A stretch of DNA of 60,172 nucleotides, taken from positions 1 to 60,172 of the forward strand of contig JAFXCD010000103.1 of NCBI GenBank assembly GCA_017521605.1, in the 5' to 3' direction. Of the stretch, positions 2,797-6,497 are shown piece by piece; within the stretch, counting starts at the first letter, position 1, and each line of letters begins with the position of its first letter. The translations under genes were made by a program, and so were the position numbers. The notes under the pieces were generated by a model. That model ran no database searches and was not told where the DNA came from. It worked only from the letters and a program-made list of their open reading frames with translations. This stretch comes from Lachnospiraceae bacterium (GTDB lineage: Bacteria > Bacillota > Clostridia > Lachnospirales > Lachnospiraceae).

Positions 2797-4632
2797 ATGA
2801 GAAGAAAAATGAAAAGGATATGGATTCTGTGTTTTGTAATAATCCTCATGTGGGCCATGACAGGCTGTGACGGTGGTATGGAAAGCATAAAGGAAGATAC
2901 GCAGAAGAGGGAAGAAAGTGTTGAAGAAGAGGAGATTCAGCCTATAGAAGCTACAGTTGAGGAAACGCTTCCACCGACAGCAACACCTGAACCGGAAGTG
3001 ACTCCCGCACCTACGTCTACCGCAACGCCGGAACTAACTGCAACGCCTGAACCTACGATTATTCCTGAACCAACTGCAATTCCTACACCGGAACCTCAGG
3101 AATCCTTACCACCCAAAGCTGTTGAATATGGAGATAAAGTCACGATATCTTATGAAAAAACGGTTTATAGTGGTGATGTTTGGGAATATGCATGTAGTCA
3201 GGAATTCAAGGTAAGTACGGCATCGAAAGAATTTCAGGGTGATTCAGAAGAAATTATCATGGAAAATGTAGAGAAAGCTATAGGTAAAACAGCAGGTGAT
3301 ACCTTTACCATATGGGTTGAAGAGGAGGAGGGTTTACATGGTTACGAATATACCATAGTGGATGTCAAGGGTGAGAATGCAGATATTATTGAATATGGCG
3401 ACAAAATTTTCACTTCATTTGTAATGCGTGGACAAGGGGTGGATACAGGAGATGGTTATACAATACATACAGGAGAGCAGGTACTTCGATTAACCAATAC
3501 GGATGCATTTATGGCTAATGCAGAAGGAGGATATTCTGTGGAAGGTGCTGATTATTGTATTAAGGAGTTAATGGGAAAAGGAGTTGGTCATAGCTTTGAT
3601 TTTGTAGAAGAAGACTATGAGTGGTTTCATCATTACAAGTATAGGATTCATGGTATTAGCAAAGCTGTTAAATATGGGGATACGATAAAAGCGGAAGTAC
3701 GGGAAGTGGTATTGGTACCGGATGAAAGCTTATGCGAGAAGGATAAAGAAGCTTCATTTATTTTTAGAGAAACAGGTACGGAACTTAATATAGATGAAAT
3801 TATAAAAGGACGGATGTTTTTTGACCGGCTGATGGGGAAAAATGTAGGTGATAACGTAGAGATACGTTTCTTTAGCGAAGGTGGTCATTTTGCAGAGGCT
3901 ACCATGTATAATATAGAGGTTAAGACTGTGCAACTAGGGGAGAAAGAAACTGAAGAAACCGATCCTATGAAAGCACTTATGTTGGCGGATGAAGAGGAGA
4001 TTGTTTTTATATATGATTCTTGTCCCTATAATGGGCTGCATAATAATTGGGGATGGATTCAGGAGACTCTTGCTATCTTCGTAGAGGATACCGAAAATCA
4101 TATGACCTATGAATATTATACTGATTATTATGATGATAAGTTTTCCTTAAGCTATACGTATGGCTTGGAACAGGAATATGATTCCGAAGGCAGAGTCATA
4201 AAGGAGATTAATAAACGAGACGAAGGTGGTGGCATGTATTATAACATTACTGAGTACAAGTATGATGCTGCCGGTAATTGTGTAGAAAGCGTAGAAGGGT
4301 ATCTGAATGATGATGGAACCTTTCAAATTTATTGTATCACTTCATTTCAATATGATGAAAACGGGATATGTATTGAAGAGAAAAAAGACTATAATGGAGG
4401 GTATGACGGACTTATAGAAGTTATATATTATAACGAAATGAAGCAGATGATTAATAAAGTGAGTACGTATAGTGATGGTAGAAAATATATTTCTGAGTAT
4501 GATCCAACCAAGCCCCACTATTATTGTAAAACAACAAGGTATGATGCAGATGGCAATGTTAATGTGACTGTAGAGGATTATGAGGAGGAATATGGGATTG
4601 ATGAGTGGGGATTTGTCAGAGTTCCCCATTGA
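2797..4632 (+). CDS. Lipoprotein with three FKBP-like repeats and a YD-repeat-like tail
   Basis: A 611-residue secreted lipoprotein of unknown function. A basic N-terminus and hydrophobic helix end in the lipobox MTGC (Cys about residue 24). A Pro/Thr/Glu-rich tether with TATPEP-type repeats covers residues 45-107. Three similar units of about 90 residues follow, each opening with a Y-G-D-K/T motif and containing I-x-x-x-M-G-K-x-V/A-G-D-x-F, a pattern like the FKBP/trigger-factor peptidyl-prolyl isomerase fold. The last 180 residues carry several Y-D-x-x-G-x-x-x-x-E units resembling YD (Rhs-type) repeats. Isomerase activity is inference; the repeats may only bind peptide or peptidoglycan. Confidence 0.75.
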   Translation: MRRKMKRIWILCFVIILMWAMTGCDGGMESIKEDTQKREESVEEEEIQPIEATVEETLPPTATPEPEVTPAPTSTATPELTATPEPTIIPEPTAIPTPEPQESLPPKAVEYGDKVTISYEKTVYSGDVWEYACSQEFKVSTASKEFQGDSEEIIMENVEKAIGKTAGDTFTIWVEEEEGLHGYEYTIVDVKGENADIIEYGDKIFTSFVMRGQGVDTGDGYTIHTGEQVLRLTNTDAFMANAEGGYSVEGADYCIKELMGKGVGHSFDFVEEDYEWFHHYKYRIHGISKAVKYGDTIKAEVREVVLVPDESLCEKDKEASFIFRETGTELNIDEIIKGRMFFDRLMGKNVGDNVEIRFFSEGGHFAEATMYNIEVKTVQLGEKETEETDPMKALMLADEEEIVFIYDSCPYNGLHNNWGWIQETLAIFVEDTENHMTYEYYTDYYDDKFSLSYTYGLEQEYDSEGRVIKEINKRDEGGGMYYNITEYKYDAAGNCVESVEGYLNDDGTFQIYCITSFQYDENGICIEEKKDYNGGYDGLIEVIYYNEMKQMINKVSTYSDGRKYISEYDPTKPHYYCKTTRYDADGNVNVTVEDYEEEYGIDEWGFVRVPH

Positions 4633-4703: not shown

Positions 4704-5138
4704 ATGGAATATCAGGATACAGTAAAATTACTAAAGGAATGTGATGCGGGTACCAAGATGGGTGTTTCTTCAATTGATGAGGTGTTGGAAAAGGTGCGTG
4801 ACTCAAAGATGAAAGAATTACTTCAGAAAAGCAAGGCACATCATGAAGAATTGGAGAATGATATCTGCAGTATGTTAGAAAAGCACAATGCTGCTGAAAA
4901 GGATCCCAACCCCATGGCAAAGGGTATGTCCTGGATGAAGACCAATATGAAACTGGCTATGGATAACAGCGATGCTACTGTAGCTGACTTGATTACCGAT
5001 GGCTGCAATATGGGCGTAAAGACGCTGAACCGCTATCTGAATCAGTACAAAGCAGCAGATGAGGAATCCAAGGCGATTTGTGGCAAGCTTATCGAAATCG
5101 AAGAGAAGCTGGGCAAGGATTTGAGACGATATTTGTAG
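4704..5138 (+). CDS. Small all-helical protein, ferritin-like DUF2383 type
   Basis: A 144-residue soluble protein with no signal peptide or membrane segment. It is predicted to be nearly all helix, with heptad-like spacing, and contains HHEELENDI near residue 47. The layout (N-terminal helix pair, HHEEL, a Pro-containing hinge, then a long helix pair) resembles the PA2169/DUF2383 ferritin-like family, whose role is unknown. It has its own strong ribosome binding site buried in a hairpin. A large inverted repeat starts at its 3' end, so its mRNA would carry that structure. Family assignment is moderate; function is not known. Confidence 0.7.
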   Translation: MEYQDTVKLLKECDAGTKMGVSSIDEVLEKVRDSKMKELLQKSKAHHEELENDICSMLEKHNAAEKDPNPMAKGMSWMKTNMKLAMDNSDATVADLITDGCNMGVKTLNRYLNQYKAADEESKAICGKLIEIEEKLGKDLRRYL

Positions 5139-5332
5139 AAATGCCAGATAGACCAGTCTGTATTGGCCCGACGGCTATATATCCTGATGAGGTAACCCTG
5201 AAAGGCGTCACCCCTTGGCGAGGTATTAAGCCGAACTTGTTCGGCACGAGCCTAGTGGTGCTACGCCTTTCACAAGCGAGAGCGGGTCCGAATAGGATAT
5301 ATAGCCGTCGGGCCAATACAGACTGGGCATTT
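5139..5332. repeat. Large structured inverted repeat, candidate non-coding RNA or MITE
   Basis: A perfect 33-base inverted repeat (5153-5185 with 5294-5326) is extended outward by AAATGC/GCATTT (5139-5144 and 5327-5332). The 108-base centre is itself structured: ACCC/GGGT (5195-5198, 5284-5287), GAAAGGCGT/ACGCCTTTC (5200-5208, 5263-5271), CACC/GGTG (5209-5212, 5257-5260), GCCGAA-CTTG-TTCGGC (5230-5245) and a small GC-GAGA-GC hairpin (5276-5283). It fills the whole gap between two convergent genes and looks richer in G+C than its surroundings. It could be a structured RNA, a bidirectional terminator, or a non-autonomous element with 33-base terminal repeats. I see no target-site duplication and no convincing protein. 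Confidence 0.8.
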
Positions 5333-5333
5333 A

Positions 5334-6497
5334 TTAGTTCTGCTTATTTAATCGTCTCAAAATCCATCTTGAAACCGGTTTTTCAATCAGGTAAGTAGTT
5401 AGTATTGCCATGACTAAAGAAACAACGATACATAGCAGCATATATTTCCACATCCAGGGCTTATCACCAAGTTGATTGGGTGGAGTAGTACCTTCCCAAT
5501 AGGGAATACGGAATTCCTTTAGCTTTACGGCGATATACTGATGCCAGATATATAAGTTAAAGGAAATGCCGGCAAGGAATTTCATAAACCGGTTTCCTAA
5601 GAAGAAACGGAAGTATTGCTGTGTCATCAGGATGCCAAATAGGATGAGCAGATATACAAGAGATAATACAAAACGATACTTTACCTGCCATTGCTGACCG
5701 TTAGGGAAGCACATATGGTGGTCACAAAGGATTTTAAAAAGCACAAGACCTAAAAGGACCATCAATACATAAAAGAATTGCTCGGACTTTAGGGGCTTTT
5801 TTTCTTTGGTGATGGACACATATACCCATGCTCCCAGCATACCGTTTGCAAATACGGAGAAGAAGGTCAGGGTATGATTTACATATAAGCCTTGGGTTAA
5901 CCCACCAAAGTTTTGGCTGATAATATGACTGCTTATCAGGCCCAGCAAAGTCATACCACTATATGTAAGAATCGGTCTTTTTTGAAACCATTTGGCCAGT
6001 AATGGAAAGAGCAGATAAAACTGTACTTCCACGGCAACGGTCCACAGGACACCGTTTAGTTTGGTACCAACTAAGGTGTCATAGGAAAAATTATGTACAA
6101 AAAAGGTGTGGGCCAAAATATCCTTCCACATAAAGTCTTTGTTTGCGAACTCCTTTAGAGGCAGAGCAAAGAAGAATAAAACAATTAACACGCTGAAATA
6201 ATAGGAGGGGAGAATGCGAGCTCCTCTTTTTATATAAAAAGTTTTTGTGGTTGGTGTAGGGGTACCATATACCATGCCGCGGGCATAGGGCAGAAAGAGA
6301 CAAAAGCCGGATAATAAAATCATCATATCCACAAGTAAGGAACCATTTCTTGGAATCCAGTCTATATTAAAATCTCCAACAATGGGCATTAGCCAGGATT
6401 GCTGCCAGAAATGAAACCATACAACAATCAGGATGGCAATGGCACGAATTCCATCTAAAACATCTATATGTTTTGTCTGATAAAAGGGCATTGACAT
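5334..6497 (-). CDS. Membrane acyltransferase, acyltransferase-3 (OafA/YrhL) family
   Basis: A 387-residue multi-pass membrane protein with about ten hydrophobic segments. The N-terminal DVLDGIRAIAILIVVWFHFW holds the R-x-x-A and W-x-H landmarks of the family, and ILPSYYFSVL near residue 95 is a second signature. Such enzymes transfer acyl groups (acetyl, succinyl) to cell-surface sugars, peptidoglycan or exported small molecules. The start at 6497 is chosen because AAAGGAG lies just upstream; an extension to 6590 lacks both a ribosome binding site and family similarity. Acceptor unknown. Its 3' end abuts the large inverted repeat. Confidence 0.9.
   Translation of the reverse strand: MSMPFYQTKHIDVLDGIRAIAILIVVWFHFWQQSWLMPIVGDFNIDWIPRNGSLLVDMMILLSGFCLFLPYARGMVYGTPTPTTKTFYIKRGARILPSYYFSVLIVLFFFALPLKEFANKDFMWKDILAHTFFVHNFSYDTLVGTKLNGVLWTVAVEVQFYLLFPLLAKWFQKRPILTYSGMTLLGLISSHIISQNFGGLTQGLYVNHTLTFFSVFANGMLGAWVYVSITKEKKPLKSEQFFYVLMVLLGLVLFKILCDHHMCFPNGQQWQVKYRFVLSLVYLLILFGILMTQQYFRFFLGNRFMKFLAGISFNLYIWHQYIAVKLKEFRIPYWEGTTPPNQLGDKPWMWKYMLLCIVVSLVMAILTTYLIEKPVSRWILRRLNKQN

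Follow-up and report, generated by a model that had tools for sequence, protein, structure and literature searches.

A palindromic element between convergent genes of a Lachnospiraceae bacterium, probably a member of a MITE-like family nesting in intrinsic terminators

What occupies the gap between two convergent genes in the 60,172 nucleotides of Lachnospiraceae DNA analysed here, a whole stretch that we call the window? The gap is bounded by the gene end at position 5138, where the upstream gene has a DUF2383 match below the cut-off, and by the convergent stop at position 5334 of an acyltransferase-3 gene. A preliminary description had reported a perfect inverted repeat of 33 bases around 108 bases, and its coordinates are exact: the arms 5153-5185 and 5294-5326 are 100% complementary, with a spacing of 108 nucleotides. 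The same description held that the element fills the gap, and an extra stem of 7 bp (5139-5145/5326-5332) completes the filling; both hairpins that it named, GCCGAA-CTTG-TTCGGC and one of GNRA type, are where it placed them (Table 1). A called ORF of 106 amino acids overlaps the element itself. Elsewhere in the window, a large ORF at 2797-4632 has a start that looks, by eye, like that of a lipoprotein, and a single RHS-repeat match just above the cut-off.

Table 1. Features of the window element, in window coordinates.
Feature	Position	Strand	Basis and remarks
Outer terminator-like stem, 5' half AAATGCC	5139..5145	+	Fold; pairs with 5326-5332; plain hairpin there in sister species G078
Left copy-specific arm	5153..5174	+	Perfect pairing with 5305-5326
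Left inner arm CTATATATCC	5175..5184	+	Common to several own-genome copies and G078
Conserved core	5183..5297	+	Covariance model R2; covariation
P2, 5' strand ACCC	5195..5198	+	Fold; pairs with 5284-5287
P3	5199..5272	+	Fold, alignment; stem 5199-5208/5263-5272
P3, YU bulge	5261-5262	+	Alignment
P3, CUU/UAG stem with U-U mismatch	5216/5253	+	U-U in 60/60
P3, tandem G-A	5220-5221/5248-5249	+	47/60 copies
P3, variable tip hairpin GCCGAA-CTTG-TTCGGC	5230-5245	+	Fold
P4, hairpin GC-GAGA-GC with GNRA tetraloop	5276..5283	+	GNRA in 59/60 aligned copies
Right inner arm GGATATATAG	5295..5304	+	Copy comparison
Right copy-specific arm	5305..5326	+	Pairs with left arm; copy comparison
Outer terminator-like stem, 3' half GGCATTT	5326..5332	+	Fold; G078 comparison

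The idea of a structured core is well founded on either strand: the plus strand folds at -112.3 kcal/mol (z -12.2) and the minus strand at -107.7 (z -12.1), and in both cases none of 200 dinucleotide shuffles is equally stable. The extent first given to the element has to be reduced, since the conserved part leaves out much of the long arm. A BLASTN search of the element's own genome recovers only query positions 37-166, or about 5175-5304 of the window, and none of the other copies compared shares the outermost 22 bp of the arms (5153-5174/5305-5326). With covariance model R2 the window copy scores 70.5 bits (E 5.8e-16) and is the sole match in the window at E<=1; P2 is slightly shifted in R2 relative to the fold, and R2 flags mismatches there.

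The next question is how often, and where, this core recurs. A single-copy sequence is not what we find: BLASTN and covariance searches agree on a multi-copy element. Model R1, built from 29 copies, matches the own genome 30 times at E<=1, and 28 of these matches, the window copy included, have E<=1.1e-7. Searches of the genus, the family and the phylum scored the best 23, 11 and 8 candidates per genome, so that their copy numbers are lower bounds. Within the genus, 103 of 138 genomes have matches, the other 35 having none at threshold among their best 23 candidates; within the family the figure is 118 of 299 genomes, or 117 of the 298 sampled genera, own included. In the phylum, 5 of 398 genomes match: four of these five belong to the family, the own genome among them, and the fifth, G792, is from a different family and has six copies. 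A pattern scan of named genomes yields at least 118 stretches; among the matches listed (80 of at least 118), most are titled Lachnospiraceae, others are named Pseudobutyrivibrio, Butyrivibrio, Dorea and, for one MAG, [Clostridium] symbiosum, and the remaining titles read 'bacterium' or uncultured.

Several simple identities for the family can be set aside. Plasmids and phages have no match by BLASTN and viral contigs none to a single exact pattern, and we reject a plasmid or phage cargo. Nothing in the window matches Rfam at the gathering threshold; at E<=10, four weak and unrelated matches surround the element, of which one overlaps its last 16 bases and none covers the core. The window string CCTGATGAGG..CTGAAA (5183-5203), which we take to resemble a hammerhead core, is not kept in other copies, and no Rfam hammerhead matches at E<=10. 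We searched 20 low-match genomes again, 15 of which have exactly one match, and inspected 20 loci from such genomes, two of them off-centre and unusable. Judging from neighbours that we presumptively named by eye from protein starts, the usable loci adjoin different genes, save the congeners L342 and L345 with a common neighbour; a single ancestral RNA gene is rejected on this ground. A search of titles and abstracts, with incomplete coverage of the literature, found no description of the family.

The core itself is a three-way junction of about 115-130 nucleotides, to which the arms are added. Alignment A4 holds 60 cores, hand-picked from 155 non-redundant ones among 217 usable copies, and is read with a structure of 26 pairs written by hand. 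Standard pairs make up 90.1% of this structure. Changes on both sides affect 23 of the 26 pairs and 264 cells, compared to 17.0 pairs and 75.5 cells in shuffles: the observed values are reached by none of 500 shuffles, and the signal is lost once the partner is shifted by 1-3 columns. The U-U mismatch is present in all 60 cores, the two-base bulge is YU in 59, the tandem G-A occurs in 47, and the P4 loop is GNRA in 59, with six GNRA types; any given reading frame is open in at most 15 of the 60. P1 has more GU than AC when taken on the read strand, 82 against 31; over all pairs the two are not clearly separated (43/49 and 65/29 in one count, 47/49 in another), and we discarded the comparison as a strand test. 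At several orthologous loci the core seems, by eye, better conserved than the arms. Four copies (L082, L085, L368 and L364) carry a long insert at the tip of P3 with further hairpins, such as AAGTTTGCAAAGCAAACTT and GAGAATTGCTTTGCAATTCTC.

The arms behave differently. When the copies of the own genome are folded with their flanks, the outer arms are long and many are perfectly paired, and their sequence varies from copy to copy. Pairing beyond the ends of the model has a median of 21 bp and a range of 0-57 in the 147 of 160 non-redundant copies, from many genomes, that have enough flank; left and right flanks taken from different copies pair over a median of 1 bp and a maximum of 34, the latter probably coming from copies with common arms. 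The orthologous pair L066/L363 is conserved in both flanks and differs at 8 of its 32 arm pairs; each of the 8 shows a two-sided change that preserves pairing, and no arm pair shows a one-sided change, although P3 is missing from the G078 copy. As a general rule, such concerted change fails. Over nine orthologous comparisons, 307 stem pairs are unchanged and 17 fall in gaps; two-sided changes left 35 paired and 8 unpaired, and one-sided changes, 85 in all, left 24 paired and 61 unpaired. Flanking stems are counted here as well, and the numbers are unreliable for arms with indels, those of L135/L167 and L188/L197, although in each of these copies the two arms still pair with one another. Because one-sided changes are so common in the nine comparisons, we regard correction of one arm from the other by template switching as a possibility, suggested by the single locus L066/L363. 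Two further orthologous comparisons are of a different kind: the elements at L065/L366 belong to different subfamilies and point in opposite directions, and those at L063/L368 differ in their arms.

Is the element mobile? The relatives provide the evidence. In genome G032, elements end in CAATG..CATTG, of type CAATGNCATT..AATGNCATTG. Of 22 copies examined there, 14 are scorable and 6 lack recognisable ends: in the 14, the ten flanking bases of each side agree at 5.5 positions on average, against 2.5 in mismatched pairs, and in L273, L280, L282 and L284 they agree at 9-10 of 10. L280 sits inside the P4 region of an apparent second copy, with a perfect ten-base duplication, and near-matching duplications flank L312 and L313, which are outside the 14 scored copies and within the 13 mapped sites discussed below. 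A second subfamily ends in GTAAC..GTTAC (GTAACAGTTCAG..CTGAACTGTTAC) and has 8-bp duplications: the flanks match at 7-8 of 8 positions in five of seven copies and at 0 and 2 in the other two, with a mean agreement of 5.6, against 3.2 in mismatched pairs; copies L132 and L150, with near-identical flanks, are not independent. Since the duplications measure 10 bp in G032 and 8 bp in the GTAAC subfamily, one and the same core is found in elements whose ends are unrelated and whose duplications differ in length. The behaviour of the element in relatives is that of a MITE-like mobile element. For the subfamily of the window copy, the own-genome copies folded with their flanks reveal no common ends beyond CTATATATCC, and no target duplication or shared terminal repeat is definable for the window copy and its subfamily. 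G032 also has, on contig C50, an element of 82 bp with CAATG ends and without the conserved core (L310:453-533).

The sites of insertion suggest a preference. We defined a terminator-like hairpin by our own rule, and joined the flanks of each mapped G032 copy minus ten bases: such a hairpin is rebuilt at 9 of the 13 sites, the insertion point falling in its loop, and is not rebuilt at the other 4. The same rule holds for 78 of 2000 random flank positions, a few of which are inside elements, and for 69 of 2000 clear of elements. In sister species G078, the window locus is occupied by a plain terminator, GAATACCAGCCA..TGGCTGGTATTC (also given as GAATACCAGCCA..TGGCTGGTATTCTTTTC), between the same neighbours: the upstream protein is 91% identical and the downstream sequence is the same. 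G078 has a plain terminator at the L067 locus too, but only one flank is conserved, and this is no clean empty site. T-runs at the ends of arms, sought by a crude test in the own genome, are present in 8 of 22 copies and at 903 of 4000 random positions; the ATTAG that follows the outer stem of the window element is a poor U-tract. Nesting in terminators is supported by the joined G032 flanks in relatives and by the comparison with G078 at the window locus.

We placed 149 copies relative to genes, a further 11 being excluded for their short loci. Edges account for 19 of the 149, called ORFs (overlapping frames included) for 11 and gaps for 119. The gaps that bear copies are 73 tandem, 26 convergent and 20 divergent, against 132, 23 and 32 element-free gaps at the same loci. 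Copies have the same orientation as the genes in 41 cases and the opposite one in 32, which is no bias. One weak copy, at L352 (37 bits), lies between what we take, from protein starts, to be an adenylate-kinase-like and a SecY-like gene; adenylate kinase and SecY genes are usually adjacent in one operon. At L094:950-1090, repeated GGGGACGGT-type motifs, to our eye reminiscent of REP-like repeats, adjoin a copy.

In 16 close pairs of our choosing the copies point apart, with 52-611 bp between them, and two sets of these are orthologous. The pairs, minus then plus, are those of L143, L160, L182, L166, L146, L178, L154 and L179, and of L170, L134, L133, L094, L109, L108, L105 and L316; the L109 pair is flanked by GTAACAGTTCAG-type ends. 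Close divergent pairs could be a composite unit, and close tandem pairs exist as well (L194, L101, G085 C17 and G087 C17). An autonomous version lodged between divergent copies was considered and dropped: no transposase was recognised, two pair interiors having been inspected in full. Two of the called ORFs that overlap pairs lack a Pfam match; the one in L108 is a cache-domain gene with a called frame that extends over the pair. Between the divergent copies of L105 (1620-2229) are a 78-codon DUF3781 gene and a distinct long inverted repeat that lacks the core.

To which class should the family be assigned? It is a short dispersed repeat, present in 28 copies in the own genome, whose core has no widely open frame; common terminal inverted repeats are present in the G032 and GTAAC subfamilies, with the target-site duplications of 10 and 8 bp described above. 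No parent transposon with the same ends was found in searches for PF01609 and PF03050, and a scan of G032 for the terminal repeat pattern gave element-sized pairs and solo ends, with no transposase-sized pair recognised. Because no parent was found, two transposase families having been searched, we file the family as MITE-like only. IS66 elements have GTAA ends and an 8-bp duplication, which fit one subfamily, but DDE_Tnp_IS66 (PF03050) is absent from all five genomes searched, two of them with GTAAC-type copies and some of them incomplete, and derivation from IS66 is rejected. IS4/IS231 elements duplicate 10-12 bp, as do the G032 copies with 10, but this origin is rejected as well: DDE_Tnp_1 (PF01609) was not found in G000, G032 or G078, where some genomes are incomplete (G032, 85%).

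Other known systems resemble the family in part. An intrinsic terminator has a GC-rich hairpin and a U-tract: the host site is one in the sister species, and the U-tract of the window copy is weak. REP/BIME sequences are palindromes of 20-40 nucleotides linked to a RAYT transposase, and their size is unlike that of the element. Group IIC introns also target terminator stem-loops, but they are large ribozymes with a reverse transcriptase. NEMIS/Correia, ERIC, RUP, CIR and other bacterial MITEs are described in the available part of PMC2229807 as small (100-200 bp) non-autonomous dispersed repeats, mostly intergenic, forming long RNA stem-loops, several of them with terminal repeats and target duplications. 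The present element differs from that description in having one core common to subfamilies with unrelated ends and 8- or 10-bp duplications, in targeting terminator loops in one mapped subfamily, in arms that vary by copy, and in a range that covers a whole family. The PATEs and SMR-A of Haloquadratum are likewise small and free of transposase (PMC3119063, available part). Because SMR-A insert within near-terminal palindromes of other elements, the targeting of palindromes has a precedent. According to the same partial text, SMR-A make no target duplications, whereas two subfamilies here do, and PATEs, related to IS605, have neither terminal inverted repeats nor target duplications; both are present in these two subfamilies, and we reject an assignment to PATEs. 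A conserved RNA-like core is absent from that description of PATEs and SMR-A. REP-targeting insertion sequences also enter extragenic palindromes but, as far as the available part of PMC1525189 goes, they code for protein and their targets are REPs rather than terminators. Finally, Fremin and Bhatt 2021 (PMC8040213, available part) list 250 palindromic candidate structured RNAs of human microbiomes, 230 of them predicted terminators. The family could be among their 3161 models; the palindromic examples in that part are from Bacteroidetes, and the string 'transpos' is absent from the paper's text.

Taken together, these results make it probable, in our judgement, that the window element is a copy of a small non-coding MITE-like mobile family of Lachnospiraceae-type bacteria that nests in the hairpins of intrinsic terminators. 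The preliminary description had offered a choice between a non-coding RNA and a small mobile element with a passenger structure. Its mobile half is well supported by the dispersed copies, by the terminal repeats, target duplications and nested insertion in relatives, and by the plain terminator of the sister species, with the reservation that target duplications belong to the relatives' subfamilies and none is seen at the window copy. Of its RNA half, the covarying stems favour a structured core that would be RNA-like, and the unbiased orientation relative to genes does not speak for it. Our confidence is lowered because concerted arm change is not general and because L067 has a single conserved flank.

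How could such insertions persist? In the relatives, elements with terminal inverted repeats and target duplications enter terminator loops, and the window element would have done so where the sister species has its plain terminator. Since the arms are palindromic, the stem of the host terminator could still zip up at its base; the insertion would consequently be tolerated, and the long hairpin could act as a bidirectional terminator between convergent genes. We infer that it may still terminate transcription. The arms seem to change faster than the core and mostly to stay paired, for which template switching is one possible cause. The core, with its three-way junction and GNRA hairpin, is most likely what makes a copy mobile, because it is kept across subfamilies with unrelated ends; a putative enzyme or host factor would recognise it as RNA or as single-stranded DNA. 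A bolder reading, which we hold only tentatively, is that of a new family-wide, structure-directed mobile element: the three-way-junction core, as RNA or single-stranded DNA, would be the recognition handle of a machinery homing to terminator loops; MITEs whose ends are unrelated would have acquired it, and the arms would be rewritten at each locus separately.

Three accounts compete with the MITE-like family. An unlikely one, although the best of the three, is a structured RNA family of benefit to the host, for example an sRNA freed by RNase III from 3' UTRs, duplicated and kept by selection. It would explain the strong covariation, the motifs of RNA type (the GNRA loop in its six types, the U-U mismatch, the tandem G-A), the excess of GU in P1 and a core apparently better conserved than the arms; it fits poorly with the lack of orientation bias, with neighbours that differ between genera, with the absence of P3 in the G078 orthologue of L066, with the 35 genomes of the genus that have no match at threshold among their best 23 candidates, and with GU and AC counts that over all pairs are not clearly separated. 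Considerably less probable still is a structure of DNA recombination or replication, such as a cruciform or the site of a structure-specific recombinase, that no transposase moves: the long paired arms, the both-sided changes of L066/L363, the divergent pairs of copies and the opposite orientations at L065/L366 would suit it, and against it stand the target duplications and nested insertion in relatives, the one-sided arm changes common at other orthologous loci, and a GNRA conservation that points to folding of RNA type. That the element is only an over-long intrinsic terminator has next to nothing left to recommend it beyond its place between convergent stops and the plain terminator at the orthologous place in G078, for its core recurs at dozens of places with covariation that far exceeds the needs of termination, and as a complete account it is refuted by the 28 copies and that covariation.

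If the MITE-like family nesting in terminators is the right explanation, an element without an Rfam entry decorates terminators across a large part of a major family of gut and rumen bacteria. Plain and decorated terminators at orthologous genes would then offer a test of how mobile DNA may enter regulatory hairpins without harm, and the new structured core would be one whose partner protein can be sought. The palindrome arms, which changed jointly at one locus and not at others, would provide material on how two such arms evolve together.
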